NCBI GenBank assembly: GCA_017517965.1
Contig: JAFWXR010000058.1
Span: 1-64,000, forward strand
Length of the DNA: 64,000 bases
From: Clostridia bacterium
Lineage (GTDB): Bacteria > Bacillota > Clostridia > Oscillospirales > Feifaniaceae
Direction: 5' to 3'
Positions 42,764 through 60,578 of this stretch are shown piece by piece. Each line of letters begins with the position of its first letter. Positions within the stretch are counted from its first letter, which is position 1. Both the position numbers and the translations under genes were made by a program. The notes under the pieces are model-generated. The model searched no databases. It saw nothing but the letters and a program-made list of their open reading frames with translations, and was not told the origin of the DNA.

Positions 42764-42829
42764 AGTCCCTCCGCAGTAACAATTCTCACGTATATGACAT
42801 AGTATGAGTCAGTAAGTGAGGTGAAATAT

Positions 42830-53168: not shown

Positions 53169-54457
53169 ACCTGGTCCTCCATAACATCGACAACAGACAG
53201 CGAAATATATTCATCACTGAATATATCAAGCATATCAAGCACGTCCTTCTTTGTCACAGTATAATACGGCTTGAAACTGTCGAAGAAATCGATTCCCGAA
53301 AAATAAGTTGAAAGCATTGCATATACCGTGTCATCCGTTTTATCAAACACGTCAATCGCACCGCCGAGCAAAGCTTTTTTATTTATTTCAAATTCAGCAT
53401 CGTCGATTCCGTTCTTTTTTATTTTTTCAATTTCTTCCCTGATTATCGCATATGCTTCATCGGGATTGTTGCTTTCACCCGAAATTATGACAATAGAATA
53501 GTTATCGGAAATATTGTATTCGCTGTCAAAAGACTCGTTAATATAACCGCTTTCATAAAGGCGTTTGTAAAGCGGCGAGCTTTTGCCGAAAAGAATGCTC
53601 AAAAGAAGCGTCATCGCTATCTCTCTGCGGGACTTGTCCGCAGGAGAAAGAGTGTGTCCGAAATCCTTGATACCTATGCAAAAATACGGTATTGATATCG
53701 GCATTGCTATTCTTACTTCTTTTTGTTTTACCGTTTCGGGCTCTTTTTCCGTAACAACGCTGACATGTGTCGGCTTTACCGATTTCAACGTTTTCTCACA
53801 TACTTCAAACACGGTTTCGGGATCCGCCGGTCCGCATACGCAGAGTACCATATTTGCAGGATTATAGAAGTTATTATACGTTTTATAAAGTATTTCAGGC
53901 GTTATCTCTGCAATACTTTCAACAGTACCCGCAATATCATTCTTTACTGCATTATGTTCATATACTGCACTCATCAAATTCATAAGTACGCGCCACGAAG
54001 GTGAATCATCATACATTTTAATTTCCTGTCCGATAATTCCCTGCTCTTTAGCCACCGTTTCTTTAGTAAAATAAGGTGCTTGTACAAATTTTATAAGTGT
54101 TTCCAGATTCTTTTCAAAATTGTCGGTACACGAAAACTCGTACACCGTTTTGTCAAAGCTTGTAAAGGCATTTGCGGATGCCCCATACTCACCGAAAAGA
54201 CTGAAAACATCAACTCCGTCTTCATTTTCAAACATCTTGTGTTCAAGAAAATGGGCTGTACCATCAGGAATTGACGTAACTTCACTTTCCCCGTCTGCAA
54301 TATATCTGTCGACCGACGAACCGTATTTCGTGCCAAACATAACGTAGTTCTCGGTAAAAAGCGGTTTGGGACAGACAAGTATATGCACACCGCTTTCATG
54401 CACCGCCGAATATATTTTTTCTCCAAATTGAGCGTCTTCTCTGATTTCAAACTTCAT
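53165..54457 (-). CDS. M16 zinc peptidase, active type (YmfH-like)
   Basis: Inverzincin peptidase of 430 residues with the catalytic motif HFLEH (HxxEH) at about 89-93 and the downstream Glu in EQGIIGQEIKMYDD. The second half (about 230-430) is the usual inactive M16 C domain. It overlaps the upstream M16 gene by 11 bp. YmfF/YmfH pairs in Firmicutes have the same active/inactive split; the substrate is unknown. Confidence 0.92.
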   Translation of the reverse strand: MKFEIREDAQFGEKIYSAVHESGVHILVCPKPLFTENYVMFGTKYGSSVDRYIADGESEVTSIPDGTAHFLEHKMFENEDGVDVFSLFGEYGASANAFTSFDKTVYEFSCTDNFEKNLETLIKFVQAPYFTKETVAKEQGIIGQEIKMYDDSPSWRVLMNLMSAVYEHNAVKNDIAGTVESIAEITPEILYKTYNNFYNPANMVLCVCGPADPETVFEVCEKTLKSVKPTHVSVVTEKEPETVKQKEVRIAMPISIPYFCIGIKDFGHTLSPADKSRREIAMTLLLSILFGKSSPLYKRLYESGYINESFDSEYNISDNYSIVIISGESNNPDEAYAIIREEIEKIKKNGIDDAEFEINKKALLGGAIDVFDKTDDTVYAMLSTYFSGIDFFDSFKPYYTVTKKDVLDMLDIFSDEYISLSVVDVMEDQV

Positions 54458-55733
54458 CGGTATGTGTGTTTCCTTTCAAATAGTAAACAGTATCAAGTTT
54501 TATTTTATTTGCAACCCTTACCACATCTTCTTTGGTGACATTCATAATATCCCTGATAAAGTCATCCTGTTCTCTGTCCGTACCGTCATAACTCTCAGCA
54601 GCAGTCCATGCCACCATAGCGCCTGCACTGTCAAAACTGCTTTTGAGCATATTCACATAGAATTTTTTTGCCGTGACAATTTCATCGTCACTTACATTTC
54701 CATTCTTAATTTCTTCAAGTTGCTGCAGAATACCTGCCTCTGCCTTTTCTTTATTTTCACATTCAATACCGGAAGAAACAAGAAGTATACCCTTAGTTTC
54801 TATGAGTTGTGAACGGCAGTAATAGCAGAGCGACATTTTTTCTCTTACAACAGTAAAAAGTTTACTTGTCGGTGCAAGACCGTATATAACGTTGAATATT
54901 GAAAGTGCAGCATAATCTTTGTCATTTCTTACAGTGCCTGTCCTGAATCCAAGCGACAATTTTCCCTGAGTAACAGGCATCTCTTCAGTAATCCTTTTTA
55001 CATCATCAACATCATACACGGCAGGATACTTTTTGTAAGAAATCGGAGCAATTTCTATCTTTTCAAATGTACTACGTACCGCATTTACAACCTCATCTTC
55101 ACTTTGTGCACCAACGTAGTAGATATCAAGGCTTGTTTTTGAGACGAATTCTTTGTAAAAGTCATAAAGTTTTTTCTCGTCTATGGTTTCTACAACAGCC
55201 TCTTCACCCTCGGAGCTGATTCCGTAGACCTCATTCTCACACATAAGTGAAATGCACTTTTTTCTTGCATAAACGGTTTTATTATTGATATCTGCTCTTA
55301 TAGAATCTATCAAATTCTTTTTTTCTATGCTAACTATCTTCTCGTCGAAAGCACCGTCTTTTACAAGCGGATCGAATAAAACATCAGTAACGGTCTCCAG
55401 AGCGGCTGACAGCATAGATTTCTTATCGGGAGTAAATGCACCGTTTAAAAATTTGATGGTTGCACCCGTCTGCTGAATATCTCCCCTTTTTGTGTTAAGA
55501 GAAGCAAAATCTGCACCGTAAAGTTCGTAAAGTCTGTCATTTATTGCCTTGATATCGGGCAATTTGCGACAACCTGTCATAAGAACGTTTATAAGCAACG
55601 TTCTGTACGAAGTGTAGACCTTATCAAGTCCCGCAGAAAACAGCATGGTTATCTTATCCGTCTTGAACTTGTCCGTCTTAATGTAATGCAGCGTCACACC
55701 GCTGCATATATGTATGTGTTTTGCTTTATACAA
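54447..55733 (-). CDS. M16 peptidase-like protein, inactive type (YmfF-like)
   Basis: A 428-residue M16-fold protein that lacks HxxEH; the corresponding region reads TLLINVLMTGCRKLPD. The pattern GYLDKVYTS-like/RLYELYGADFASLNTKRGD and MPVTQGKLSLGFRTG is M16 type. Probably a non-catalytic partner of the next gene's active peptidase. The frame opens at a GTG at 55742 that lies within the ribosome site; the TTG at 55733 has AGGTG six bases ahead and is preferred. Confidence 0.87.
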   Translation of the reverse strand: MYKAKHIHICSGVTLHYIKTDKFKTDKITMLFSAGLDKVYTSYRTLLINVLMTGCRKLPDIKAINDRLYELYGADFASLNTKRGDIQQTGATIKFLNGAFTPDKKSMLSAALETVTDVLFDPLVKDGAFDEKIVSIEKKNLIDSIRADINNKTVYARKKCISLMCENEVYGISSEGEEAVVETIDEKKLYDFYKEFVSKTSLDIYYVGAQSEDEVVNAVRSTFEKIEIAPISYKKYPAVYDVDDVKRITEEMPVTQGKLSLGFRTGTVRNDKDYAALSIFNVIYGLAPTSKLFTVVREKMSLCYYCRSQLIETKGILLVSSGIECENKEKAEAGILQQLEEIKNGNVSDDEIVTAKKFYVNMLKSSFDSAGAMVAWTAAESYDGTDREQDDFIRDIMNVTKEDVVRVANKIKLDTVYYLKGNTHTDEV

Positions 55734-55755
55734 TATTTTCACCTCTTAATTGGTA

Positions 55756-55812
55756 CTACTGTTTAAAGAATATCCGAAAAAACGAAGGCAATTTGTAGCA
55801 GCTTACTTTCAT
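55756..55812 (-). CDS. spoVM: SpoVM-like peptide
   Basis: An 18-codon gene, MKVSCYKLPSFFRIFFKQ, with AGGAG eight bases before its ATG. It shares MK at 1-2, KLP at 7-9 and F11 with SpoVM of Bacillus, the 26-residue amphipathic peptide that binds the curved forespore membrane and anchors the spore coat; Pro9, important there, is kept. It also lies downstream of prpC-prkC-rsgA, the region where spoVM is found in Bacillus. It is shorter than known SpoVM by about eight C-terminal residues. Identity is inferred from pattern and gene order. Confidence 0.6.
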   Translation of the reverse strand: MKVSCYKLPSFFRIFFKQ

Positions 55813-55823
55813 AAATACATCTC

Positions 55824-55976
55824 CTAACAAAAAAGATAAAGAATGCCGACAGCAACTACAATGACGGCAAGCAAAATCGCAAGTATCCATGACGGTAAGA
55901 TAAGAGAAAGCGCTATTCCGCCGCCGACACAAACTGCCGCTATACCAAGTAATCTTTTATGATTGCATCCGAACAT
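55824..55976 (-). CDS. Small membrane protein, 50 residues
   Basis: A 50-codon gene with AGGAGG nine bases before its ATG. The peptide begins MFGCNHKRLLGIAAVC and has two hydrophobic stretches (about 9-27 and 30-49) separated by PSW, ending YLFC. Its TAG stop is part of the ribosome site of the SpoVM-like peptide, 11 bp further on, so the two are coupled. A short two-helix hairpin. Function unknown; the pairing hints at a spore-related role, which is inference. Confidence 0.65.
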   Translation of the reverse strand: MFGCNHKRLLGIAAVCVGGGIALSLILPSWILAILLAVIVVAVGILYLFC

Positions 55977-56042
55977 AACACACAGCCTCCTGCTGCCGAC
56001 TATTTATACCTTATACTATGCAGCAGTGCCTGTACTTGTTTC

Positions 56043-56900
56043 TCAATAATTCTTTCTTTTCAAACTTTCCTCGTATATTTCTTTATAACTTTCATATCTT
56101 GAGAGCGCTATCTCACCGTTTTCCACCGCAGTCTTAATTGCACAATCAGGCTCATTTATATGCGCACAGTCATCAAAACGGCAACCCTCATACTTTGAAA
56201 ATTCCCTGAAAAGAGACGCAACTTCCGATTTCGTTGCCCTCAGACATTCCTCATAACTGATATCACCAAAGCCCGGTGTATCCGCAATATAACCCCCGAA
56301 CGCCTCAAAAAGTTCTACTCTTTTGGTCGTATGCTTACCTCTGGAAATCTTGCTGATTTCACCGATCTCAGCATCATCACAAATCCCCAGTGCCTTAAGT
56401 ATACTCGACTTTCCGACACCCGAATTTCCGCCGAAAGCGCATATATTTGAACCTATGAGTTCCTTTATCTTTTCGCACCCTTCACCGCTGTGAGCACATA
56501 CGGTTAACGTCTCTATCTCCGCTTTGTTATATATGTCCTCAAGTTCTTTGGGAGACTTTATGTCTGTTTTATTTATAACTATTATCGGTCTTATGTCATT
56601 TTCTTCACAGACTGCAATAAGTTTATCCGTCACATTCAGACTGGGATCGGGGTCTGCCGTAGCCACAACGATAAACATTATGTCTATGTTGGCAATAGGC
56701 GGACGTATGAGTGCATTTTTTCGCGGTAATATTTCATCTATAACACCGTCATCGCCCGTAAGCGATATTTTCACAGTATCTCCTGGTAATGGGGATATTT
56801 TGTTTTTTCGAAATATCCCCCTTGCCTTACAGAGAATTATCGTGCTGTCAGTCTTTACATAATAATTACCCGACAGCGATTTTATAATTATTCCGTTCAT
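56043..56900 (-). CDS. rsgA: Ribosome small subunit GTPase RsgA
   Basis: Circularly permuted GTPase involved in 30S maturation, 285 residues. OB fold about 1-65, then VINKTD (G4) ahead of GNSGVGKSSIL (G1) and DTPGFGD (G3), and a C-terminal zinc site CRFDDCAHINEPDC. The ATG at 56900 follows the prkC stop by one base (TGATATG), with no strong ribosome site, so translation is probably coupled. The prpC-prkC-rsgA order is the Firmicutes standard. Confidence 0.96.
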   Translation of the reverse strand: MNGIIIKSLSGNYYVKTDSTIILCKARGIFRKNKISPLPGDTVKISLTGDDGVIDEILPRKNALIRPPIANIDIMFIVVATADPDPSLNVTDKLIAVCEENDIRPIIVINKTDIKSPKELEDIYNKAEIETLTVCAHSGEGCEKIKELIGSNICAFGGNSGVGKSSILKALGICDDAEIGEISKISRGKHTTKRVELFEAFGGYIADTPGFGDISYEECLRATKSEVASLFREFSKYEGCRFDDCAHINEPDCAIKTAVENGEIALSRYESYKEIYEESLKRKNY

Positions 56901-56901
56901 A

Positions 56902-58800
56902 TCAGTCAAAACTTACCGTTCCTGTAAATATCATCAGATTGAGTTCAGCTATCTTTACCTGCACTTCCTGAGTGCCTTTGCCTGTAAGTGAAATTTCGAC
57001 AGATTCTTCACTCGGCGAGTGAACTTTACTGTAAACCTGTGTGCCGTTCAAATATGCCACTACGGTATACGAACTCTCATAATCAGGAAGTGAGACAGTT
57101 ATCGTCTTTGTCTTTTCGGCTTCCTCTACGGGAGGCTTTGGCTCGACGGTCTCCGTCGTTCCTTTTGATACGGAAAGCGTAACGGTAGTACCCTCTTCAA
57201 CTTCCGTTCCCTCAGCAATACTCTGTGCAACTACCGTTTCTGCAGGTGAAGTGGATTCAACTTCCGTAAACGTCGCTACAAGTCCGTTTTCGCCAAGTAT
57301 TACAGACGCTTCATTCTTCGTTTTGCCTATGAGTGAAGGCATCATAACAGTTTTCACCTCAACACCACTGCTGACGTAGATGGTTATTCTTGTATCCTTA
57401 GTTATCTTTGAGCCTGCTTCAGGCGAGGTTCTTATAACGTATCCTTCGGGAACGGTTTCGCTTTCCTCTTCCTCTTTCATTCCCGAAAGTCCCATATTGC
57501 TGAGTTCTATAAGAGCTGCCCTGTATTCTTTATTAGAAAGATCCGGCACTCTCAAATCCTTAACACCAAGGCTGATATATACTCTCAGATCGCTGCCTTT
57601 TTTAACAGTCTTTCCGTCATCGGGATCCTGTCTGACGATAACCCCCTCGTCATACTCATCGCTGTATACTCTGCCCTCTTCTATAATGTTGAAATCGGCA
57701 TATTCTTCGTTTTCGACAACATCTTCATAATAAAGTCCCACAAGTTTCGGAACTTTAACATCAACAACTTCTTCGTTACTGTTTCCAACATTAAGCGCAA
57801 GAAGCGTTATGCAGAATACGATAAATGCAGTAAGCACCGCAGCAATCGCAACCATTCCCGGTACGGAAACTCTTTTTTTCTTTTTTCTGCCTGTATTTTT
57901 CATACCTGTCTCCTCCCGCTTTGCAGTAGTTGTATCTGCAGCAGCCATATACTTCTGATAAAAGCGGATAGACGGATTACGTTTGAGTTTTTCTATGTCA
58001 TCAAGGAATTCGTCAACACTCTGAAACCTGTTAACTGCTTCTTTCGATATTGCTTTCATTACAATCTCATCAAGTCCCTGGGGAATCTCAGGCACGATAT
58101 TTTTAGGACTTACCGCATTATTCTGAAGTTGCATAACCGCCACCGATACAGGATTATCGTTATCAAACGGCACCCTGCCCGTGAGCATTTCATACATCAT
58201 TATTCCGACAGAATAAATATCGCTTCTCTCATCAACAACTCCGCCCGACACCTGCTCAGGACTGATATAATGTACGGAGCCGATGGCTTTTTCTGTCATA
58301 GTATGAGTCTGAACATTAGTGAGTTTAGCTATACCGAAATCAGTAACTTTTATAGAACCGTCAGCTAAAAGCATTATATTTTGCGGTTTAATGTCTCTGT
58401 GAACAACACCTCTGCTGTGTGCATGCTGTAAAGCCTTGAGCACCTGGGATATAAACATCGTTGTGTTTTCCCAGCTGAGTTTACCCTCCTGCTCAATATA
58501 CTCTTTAAGAGAAATTCCGTTTATATATTCCATAACGATATAGTAAAGATCATCATTGAATCCGACGTTATGTATCGTTACTATATTTTCGTGATTAAGC
58601 ATCGAAATTATTTTCGATTCTGTTTCAAATCTGCGACGGAACTGCGGATCTTCAAGAAATTCTTCTTTGAGTACTTTAACCGCAACCGTAATATTTTCAG
58701 CAAGGTCATATGCCCTGTATACTACCGACATACCGCCAACGCCGACTATACTCTCAATTTTATATCTTCCGTTAATTATCTTCCCTCTGAGATCCGTCAT
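56902..58800 (-). CDS. prkC: Ser/Thr protein kinase with PASTA domains
   Basis: Membrane kinase of 632 residues. Kinase domain about 6-265 with GVGGMSVVYRA (P-loop), AVKVLK (Lys), HRDIKPQNI (catalytic) and DFGIA; a basic juxtamembrane region, one helix (about 319-340), three PASTA repeats (about 350-550), and a C-terminal beta domain (about 570-632) of unknown role. PASTA domains bind muropeptides or lipid II. GGAGGG with the ATG at 58800, one base after the prpC stop. IreB, a known target family, is encoded in this window. Confidence 0.96.
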   Translation of the reverse strand: MTDLRGKIINGRYKIESIVGVGGMSVVYRAYDLAENITVAVKVLKEEFLEDPQFRRRFETESKIISMLNHENIVTIHNVGFNDDLYYIVMEYINGISLKEYIEQEGKLSWENTTMFISQVLKALQHAHSRGVVHRDIKPQNIMLLADGSIKVTDFGIAKLTNVQTHTMTEKAIGSVHYISPEQVSGGVVDERSDIYSVGIMMYEMLTGRVPFDNDNPVSVAVMQLQNNAVSPKNIVPEIPQGLDEIVMKAISKEAVNRFQSVDEFLDDIEKLKRNPSIRFYQKYMAAADTTTAKREETGMKNTGRKKKKRVSVPGMVAIAAVLTAFIVFCITLLALNVGNSNEEVVDVKVPKLVGLYYEDVVENEEYADFNIIEEGRVYSDEYDEGVIVRQDPDDGKTVKKGSDLRVYISLGVKDLRVPDLSNKEYRAALIELSNMGLSGMKEEEESETVPEGYVIRTSPEAGSKITKDTRITIYVSSGVEVKTVMMPSLIGKTKNEASVILGENGLVATFTEVESTSPAETVVAQSIAEGTEVEEGTTVTLSVSKGTTETVEPKPPVEEAEKTKTITVSLPDYESSYTVVAYLNGTQVYSKVHSPSEESVEISLTGKGTQEVQVKIAELNLMIFTGTVSFD

Positions 58801-58801
58801 A

Positions 58802-59539
58802 TTAACCCTCCTCACTCATAGAGATAAGCAGAACTGTAATATTGTCACTTCCGCCTCTTTGTTTTGCCATTTCAACAAGTGTTCTCGAACACTCACCCAC
58901 ATCTGTAGTGACGTCAAGTTCAAAAAGTATCTCGCTATCATCAAGCATATTGGTAAGCCCGTCCGAACAGAGCATAACAATGCCGTCATCGCTTAAATCA
59001 AATTCAAAGAATTCAGCATTAACGCTGTCATATGCCCCGACAGCCCTTGTAATTATGTTTCTGTTTGGATGATTTTTAGCATCCTCGGCAGTAATTTTAC
59101 CCTCATCAACCAATTCCTGTACCATCGAATGGTCATGGCTGATCTGCACCATTTTGTCTTGTGAAAAATAGTAAGCACGCGAGTCGCCAACGTTTGCAAC
59201 AACACATTTACGCCCGACAACAAACGCCGCTACAGCAGTCGTGCCCATTCCTATATATGTTTCATCTTCCTTTGCTGCTTTAAGTATCATTTCATTTGCC
59301 TTTATAACAGCTGCCGAAAAGACTTCTTTAAACTTTTCACAGTCCATATCGTCAATTTTTTCAGAAACAAGAGAAAAAATGATGTCTGCAGCGTAATTGC
59401 TTGCTACTTTGCCTCCTCTGGGGCCACCCATACCGTCACAGACAATCCCGAAACCTTTATTTCCTTTGACCGTATTCCTGAACGTGTCCTGATTTTCAGT
59501 ACGCACACATCCTATATCGGTAATACCGCATATTCTCAC
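58802..59539 (-). CDS. prpC: PP2C-type protein phosphatase
   Basis: Stp-type metal-dependent phosphatase, 245 residues, which reverses PrkC phosphorylation. Motifs: TDIGCVRTENQDTF, FGIVCDGMGG, GTTAVAAFVV, VGDSRAYYF, ITRAVG, MLCSDGLTNML and GGSDNITVLLI. The frame opens at 59584, but the GTG at 59539, overlapping the rlmN stop by 4 bp (GTGA), gives the correct N-terminus. Confidence 0.95.
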   Translation of the reverse strand: MRICGITDIGCVRTENQDTFRNTVKGNKGFGIVCDGMGGPRGGKVASNYAADIIFSLVSEKIDDMDCEKFKEVFSAAVIKANEMILKAAKEDETYIGMGTTAVAAFVVGRKCVVANVGDSRAYYFSQDKMVQISHDHSMVQELVDEGKITAEDAKNHPNRNIITRAVGAYDSVNAEFFEFDLSDDGIVMLCSDGLTNMLDDSEILFELDVTTDVGECSRTLVEMAKQRGGSDNITVLLISMSEEG

Positions 59540-60578
59540 TCTATCACTTCCTTCTTTAAGCTTTGCCTTCTGAGCTGACCGCACGAAGCATTTATATCTC
59601 CACCAAGTTTTCTTCGCACGGTTGCGGATATTCCTTGATTATTTATATAGTTTACAAATTCATCTATTCTCTTTCTGTCGGGTTTTACAAACCCTCTCTC
59701 CTTGACCTCATTTACCGGAATGACATTGACATGTGCAAGCATACCCTTTAAAAGTTTACACAGTTTTGCCGCATCGGATACGCTGTCATTCACACCCGAT
59801 ATAACGGCATATTCAAACGATATTCTTCTGCCCGTTGTCTTTATGTAATCCTTACACGCCAAAATCAGTTCTTCTATAGGGTATTTGTGATTTATCGGCA
59901 TTATCTCGTCACGCTTTTTATCATCTGTAGCATGAAGCGAAATTGATAAGGTTATCGGCAGATTAAGCTCTGCAAGTTCGTAAATCTTCGGCACAACACC
60001 GCAAGTAGAGAGTGATATGTGCCTCATACCGATATTTAAACTGTTTTTGTCATTGATATTTTTCAAAAATGTAACCACGTTATCAAAATTGTCAAGCGGT
60101 TCACCTATTCCCATAAGAACAATGCTGTCTATTCTTTTTCCCAGATCTTTCTGTGAAAAAATTATCTGATCGGCGATTTCTCCTGCCGAAAGCCTTCTAA
60201 CCAAACCGCCTATCGTAGATGCGCAGAATGCGCAACCCATCTTACAGCCAACTTCAGTTGAAACGCAAATTGACGTACCGTGATTATATTCCATAACCAC
60301 AGTTTCAAACATTCTCCGTCAAGCATTTCATAGAGATACTTAACCGTTCCGTCTATTTGGGATACAAGTTTATTCTTAATTCTCGGATATGAGATGTATG
60401 AAACTTGTTTAAGTTTCTCTCTCGTTGCTTTTGACAAGTTTGTCATTTCATCAAAAGACGTAACACCCCGATAAAGCCACTCAAAGATTTGTTTTGCCCT
60501 AAATGACGGCTCACCAAGTTCTTTGATATAGTTTCCGAGTTCTTCAATTGTCATTGATTTAATATCGACTTTTTCCAA
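59536..60578 (-). pseudogene. rlmN: rlmN, split by a single-base frameshift
   Basis: Radical SAM methyltransferase for 23S A2503 and tRNA A37. The N-terminal part (60578 down to about 60314) ends YLYEMLDGE, and the frame then fails. From 60312 another frame continues MFETVVMEYNHGTSICVST, with the cluster motif CKMGCAFC and the catalytic C-terminal Cys in NASCGQLRRQ. One missing A in the run at 60312-60314 (GGAGAATG, expected GGAGAAATG) would rejoin the two to a normal 348-residue RlmN. All catalytic residues remain. It may be a real loss-of-function indel, a phase change or an assembly error; no slippery site is visible. Confidence 0.88.

Follow-up and report, generated by a model that had tools for sequence, protein, structure and literature searches.

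SpoVM serves as a model of how a very small peptide detects membrane curvature on the micrometre scale, and a natural SpoVM of 18 residues would place a lower bound on what curvature sensing requires. An unannotated 18-codon open reading frame (ORF) downstream of rsgA in a Clostridia bacterium contig raises the questions of whether it is the spoVM gene of the organism, and whether 18 residues is its real length. The stretch analysed, 64,000 nucleotides in full, is referred to as the window.

The 18-codon ORF and its gene neighbourhood

The ORF is on the minus strand and reads from 55812 down to 55756, with the codons ATG AAA GTA AGC TGC TAC AAA TTG CCT TCG TTT TTT CGG ATA TTC TTT AAA CAG TAG, encoding MKVSCYKLPSFFRIFFKQ and a stop. 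The leader on the same strand is TAGGAG-ATGTATTT-ATG, confirming the arrangement of AGGAG, eight bases, MKVSCYKLPSFFRIFFKQ and a stop that the initial annotation had described. K2, K7, Pro9 and F11 are all present in the 18-mer, and it has each of the three best conserved residues in an alignment of 18 sequences (M1 and P9, which are invariant, and K7, which is nearly so). Positions 6 and 15 are bulky hydrophobic or aromatic residues (Y and F, respectively), both of which occur in other Clostridia SpoVM peptides. The features of the locus are as follows.

54447 to 55742, minus strand: M16 peptidase-like gene (Pfam Peptidase_M16_C, E=2.4e-25), beginning 13 bases past the 18-mer stop
55756 to 55812, minus strand: 18-codon ORF, very likely orthologous to spoVM, judging from its position and its N-terminal motif
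55821 to 55825, minus strand: Shine-Dalgarno sequence AGGAG, 8 bases 5′ of the 18-mer ATG and overlapping the 50-codon ORF at its stop codon
55824 to 55976, minus strand: unannotated 50-codon hydrophobic ORF (MFGCNHKRLLGIAAVCVGGGIALSLILPSWILAILLAVIVVAVGILYLFC), the partner gene, of a family whose genes immediately precede spoVM across Clostridia
56013 to 56042, minus strand: promoter-like GAAACA-N16-CATAGTAT of mother-cell sigma E/K type, following directly on the rsgA stop codon and preceding the partner gene
56043 to 56909, minus strand: rsgA, ribosome small-subunit GTPase (Pfam RsgA_GTPase, E=1.4e-43)
56902 to 58815, minus strand: prkC-type Ser/Thr kinase, named by sequence and position, with the same order in the relative G003
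58802 to 59584, minus strand: prpC-type PP2C phosphatase (Pfam PP2C, E=1.2e-15)

The order of transcription on the minus strand between 51.5 and 60.6 kb is rlmN (split), prpC, prkC, rsgA, the 50-codon ORF, the 18-codon ORF, two M16 peptidase-like genes, an lgt-type gene and a folD-type gene (lgt, folD, prkC and rlmN were named from sequence). The peptide had been placed downstream of rsgA, which is correct as to order; it is not directly downstream, however, because the 50-codon ORF (55976 to 55824), overlooked in the first reading, lies between rsgA (which ends at 56043) and the peptide. The locus shows the spoVM gene neighbourhood, with the rsgA operon and the partner gene directly upstream. 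In 29 relatives the M16 homologues had no SpoVM-like ORF ahead of them, so the link to M16 is local to this species. The split rlmN (59536 to 60578, minus strand) comprises overlapping ORFs of 122 and 258 aa, apparently due to one base missing in a T run; no other frameshift is evident in the roughly 60 genes of the window.

The form of the promoter-like site (AC, 16-17 bases, CATA) is one that we take to resemble mother-cell sigma E/K promoters. Many loci have GTAACA-N16-CATATAAT, or a sequence near it, ahead of the partner gene, and the strict form was found upstream of the partner in 18/60 loci relative to 0.04 expected, although these counts are post hoc as the motif was chosen after inspecting the same regions. 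The window as a whole contains the strict form twice, once at 56013 to 56042. The other match, GTAACA-N16-CATAGTAT at 42776 on the plus strand, has no long plus-strand gene behind it. The classical sigma E pattern (ATA-N14-18-[CG]ATA[CT]A) was present in 1/44 upstream regions, no more than by chance.

The partner gene and its linkage to spoVM

The partner profile has 49 positions and gives E values down to 1e-17. When built without the window's family it matched the window copy at E=4.4e-12, with the next best of 1126 ORFs at 0.65, and the profile matches 167/291 genomes of the class at E ≤ 0.1. For the linkage count, the 102 best partner matches (one each) were checked against the SpoVM list, and 48 were located in genomes with a listed SpoVM. 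SpoVM is directly downstream of the partner, on the same strand, in 48/48 class genomes with both listed, and with the training genomes set aside the adjacency was found in 41/41. A SpoVM-like ORF follows the partner in 28 of the best 30 partner loci (window included), and a scan with three sequences showed SpoVM behind the partner in 15/15 named genomes of Clostridium and relatives, including C. ljungdahlii, C. tyrobutyricum and C. magnum. The order in C. ljungdahlii is rsgA-rpe-thiN-partner-spoVM (rpe and thiN named from sequence). The linkage of the partner ORF is the strongest evidence that the 18-mer is spoVM, and the partner profile is a stronger handle than the SpoVM sequence, allowing spoVM to be located by its neighbour.

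Several partner loci have a different arrangement. Two loci in genomes of the window's own family, L114 (G002) and L116 (G006), keep a 49-residue partner downstream of rsgA with no recognisable SpoVM behind it, and the slot in G006 is occupied by a Pro-rich ORF (MRFHIPFPHRKRK...). L193 (G111) and L195 (G310), which belong to one family, have strong partner matches with no SpoVM-like ORF directly behind.

In a search of 59 genomes of the order with RsgA and the NCBIfam SpoVM model, many had SpoVM downstream of rsgA, the distance being about 95-400 bases or, where other genes intervene, about 0.9-1.3 kb. In one genome (L139, G037:C1:114403-114474) SpoVM is just behind rsgA on the opposite strand, pointing towards rsgA. 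The closest relative, G003, has an RsgA 54% identical to that of the window and the order rlmN-prpC-prkC-rsgA-48-residue hydrophobic ORF-MKIYCFKMPRFISWLFFRKKDKD, the last being a peptide of 23 residues (C37:16994; E=0.0014 to NF033436) that is 44% identical to the window 18-mer in alignment and shares Cys5. Similar hydrophobic ORFs precede the peptides of G004 (MKIYTVKPPKLLSRVLKLFCRK) and G031 (MKIVVLKPPAFIRSILIKMFKVNK). The G003 and G004 peptides score E=0.0014 and 3.4e-5, respectively, on SpoVM models and 8e-5 and 6e-9 on a locally built profile. Of the two checks named beforehand, the first asked whether relatives keep the frame, and G003 and G004 do, each carrying its peptide in the corresponding slot after the partner gene. 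The second was a search of the 76% complete assembly for a canonical spoVM at another site, and none turned up; the NCBIfam SpoVM model gave only two chance matches (E=0.23 and 0.68) and did not match the 18-mer in its own genome. The 18-codon ORF is very likely this organism's spoVM gene, encoding an unusually short peptide, an identity that rests on position.

Length and integrity of the peptide

SpoVM peptides collected for comparison are 22-31 residues long, which puts the 18-mer four residues below their minimum (22). As assembled, it falls short of the 22-30 or so residues typical of SpoVM, in which a long helix follows Pro9. That length is typical of SpoVM members, and we know of no definition that requires it. 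The peptide had been described as a minimal form, which holds for its 18 residues as assembled; a functional minimal form is putative.

A spoVM of ordinary length may have been truncated by a one-base deletion near the 3′ end, in the organism or in the assembly, an explanation that is improbable and still carries some weight. The site would be the AAA run near the 3′ end, in the TTTAAACAG stretch, and a one-base shift after Lys17 gives 24 residues (...FFKTVVPIKR), with the end of the frame falling within the Shine-Dalgarno region that serves the M16 gene. The shifted frame has ordinary SpoVM length and a basic C-terminus and scores slightly better on the profile (8.1 bits vs 6.6), but the gain is small and a different shift scores higher still. 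The neighbouring rlmN has likewise been split, apparently through the loss of one base; however, about one such frameshift in some 60 window genes corresponds to a prior of only about 0.1% for a 57-base gene. In addition, the in-frame IFFK of the 18-mer resembles LFFR of the G003 peptide. On balance, 18 residues is probably the real length.

Spo0A (E=1.2e-45), SigK (E=3.4e-87) and a SigF/SigG-type factor (E=2e-54, cut by a contig end) are present in the genome, indicating that the lineage is a spore former, or recently was. The assembly is 75.7% complete (1.4 Mb); SpoIVA, which is present in 6/7 family members and 52/59 genomes searched, was not found in it, and no sigA was recognised in it. 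The failure to find SpoIVA, the small assembly, the weak profile score of the 18-mer and the family members without a recognisable SpoVM behind the partner gene would all fit a decayed, non-functional spoVM, with sporulation being lost from the lineage. This explanation is considered quite unlikely, as Spo0A, SigK and the SigF-like gene are present, the Shine-Dalgarno sequence, promoter-like site and partner gene are intact, and the absent genes fit a completeness of 76%.

As a sequence alone the 18-mer scores poorly, with 6.6 bits on the locally built SpoVM profile (E about 1, not significant) and 8.0 bits on an N-terminal matrix (SpoVM positions 2-12), below all of 24 known sequences (20-33 bits). 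There was no match to the curated Pfam and NCBIfam SpoVM models when the query was the 18-mer extended to 24 letters by six out-of-frame residues, and the 18-mer does not reach the curated model cut-off. Many evident Clostridia SpoVMs miss 31 bits too, so the 31-bit cut-off does not define the family here; no relative exceeds the cut-off of Pfam PF08183, a model that is too narrow. Among the 62 short ORFs with a Shine-Dalgarno sequence in the window, the 18-mer is by a wide margin the top scorer on the matrix, and ORFs with a start, a Shine-Dalgarno sequence and an equal matrix score are expected at 0.017 per 64 kb (both strands). As this amounts to about 0.4 equally good ORFs genome-wide (1.4 Mb), position and not sequence carries the case for spoVM. 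Only 1/120,000 simulated slots behind the partner ORF, of the same composition, reached the 18-mer score (0 with a Shine-Dalgarno sequence), and no simulated slot (n=120,000) equalled its similarity to the G003 peptide. A chance ORF, with its start, Shine-Dalgarno sequence and K-L-P motif behind the partner gene by coincidence, would fit the non-significant profile score and the number of equally good ORFs expected genome-wide, but is strongly disfavoured by these simulated slots and by the peptide occupying the one place where spoVM is expected, and can be regarded as extremely improbable.

We are confident that this ORF is the spoVM gene of a clostridial spore former; it is probably co-transcribed with its partner late in the mother cell, and its peptide is most likely SpoVM-like in action. 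What is observed directly is the sequence with its Shine-Dalgarno site, the conserved pairing and order of the genes, the homologous G003 peptide, the shared promoter-like site and the sporulation regulators of the genome; that the 18-mer is transcribed, translated and localised, binds SpoIVA and functions in its short form is inferred.

Comparison with known SpoVM proteins and a possible role

Similarly to B. subtilis SpoVM (26 residues; NF011327/NF033436, PF08183), the 18-mer has M1, K2, K7-L8-P9 and F11, is short, basic and of amphipathic type, and is encoded downstream of prpC-prkC-rsgA. It differs in having 18 residues, without the C-terminal part of the helix, in falling below all family cut-offs, and in having Y6 for I6 and F15 for I15. 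Pro9 is the sole SpoVM residue to be fully conserved in PMC5607322. In B. subtilis it introduces a kink in the helix and is required for recognition of the positively curved membrane; SpoIVA binding depends on residue 6, and residues 2 and 15 play a part in cortex production and in the CmpA checkpoint (PMC5607322). Sequence searches have detected SpoVM in some clostridia and not in several others (PMC3533761). Relative to the SpoVM peptides of Clostridia, of which that of G003 is nearest, the 18-mer has the same slot behind the same partner and K2, K7, P9 and F11, but is shorter by at least four residues (18 vs 22-31) and has unusual residues at positions 4-6, 10 and 12.

The C. difficile protein CD25622, of 50 residues and unknown function, is cotranscribed with spoVM under sigma E, was stated to be, by appearance, "unique to the Peptostreptococcaceae", and insertions in either gene reduced heat-resistant spores only 3- to 5-fold (PMC5607322). 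No mention of CD25622 was found in the literature searched beyond that study. The window likewise has a gene for a hydrophobic protein of 50 residues directly upstream of spoVM. In contrast to the distribution reported for CD25622, the gene in the partner position spans the class, and it appears to be common to much of the Clostridia rather than restricted to the Peptostreptococcaceae; its homology to CD25622 is suggested by size and position.

It is probable that spoVM and the gene for the 50-residue membrane protein are transcribed together late in the mother cell. By analogy with B. subtilis, the amphipathic helix of the 18-mer, kinked at Pro9, would rest on the outer forespore membrane and sense its positive curvature, and the peptide would hold SpoIVA at this membrane, allowing the base layer of the coat to form. 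The helix would extend only about nine residues past Pro9, about half the usual length, making the 18-mer a short variant. A functional 18-mer that is the shortest known SpoVM and localises to the forespore by acting with the 50-residue partner, the two forming a two-peptide coat anchor in Clostridia, is a tentative and rather doubtful proposal. The partner gene, apparently widespread in Clostridia and without a known function, is a testable candidate for coat attachment. Partner-like ORFs are doubled in tandem before spoVM, or lie near each other, at L064 (G189), G209:C7, G231:C301, G211:C144, G167:C38 and G328:C298.
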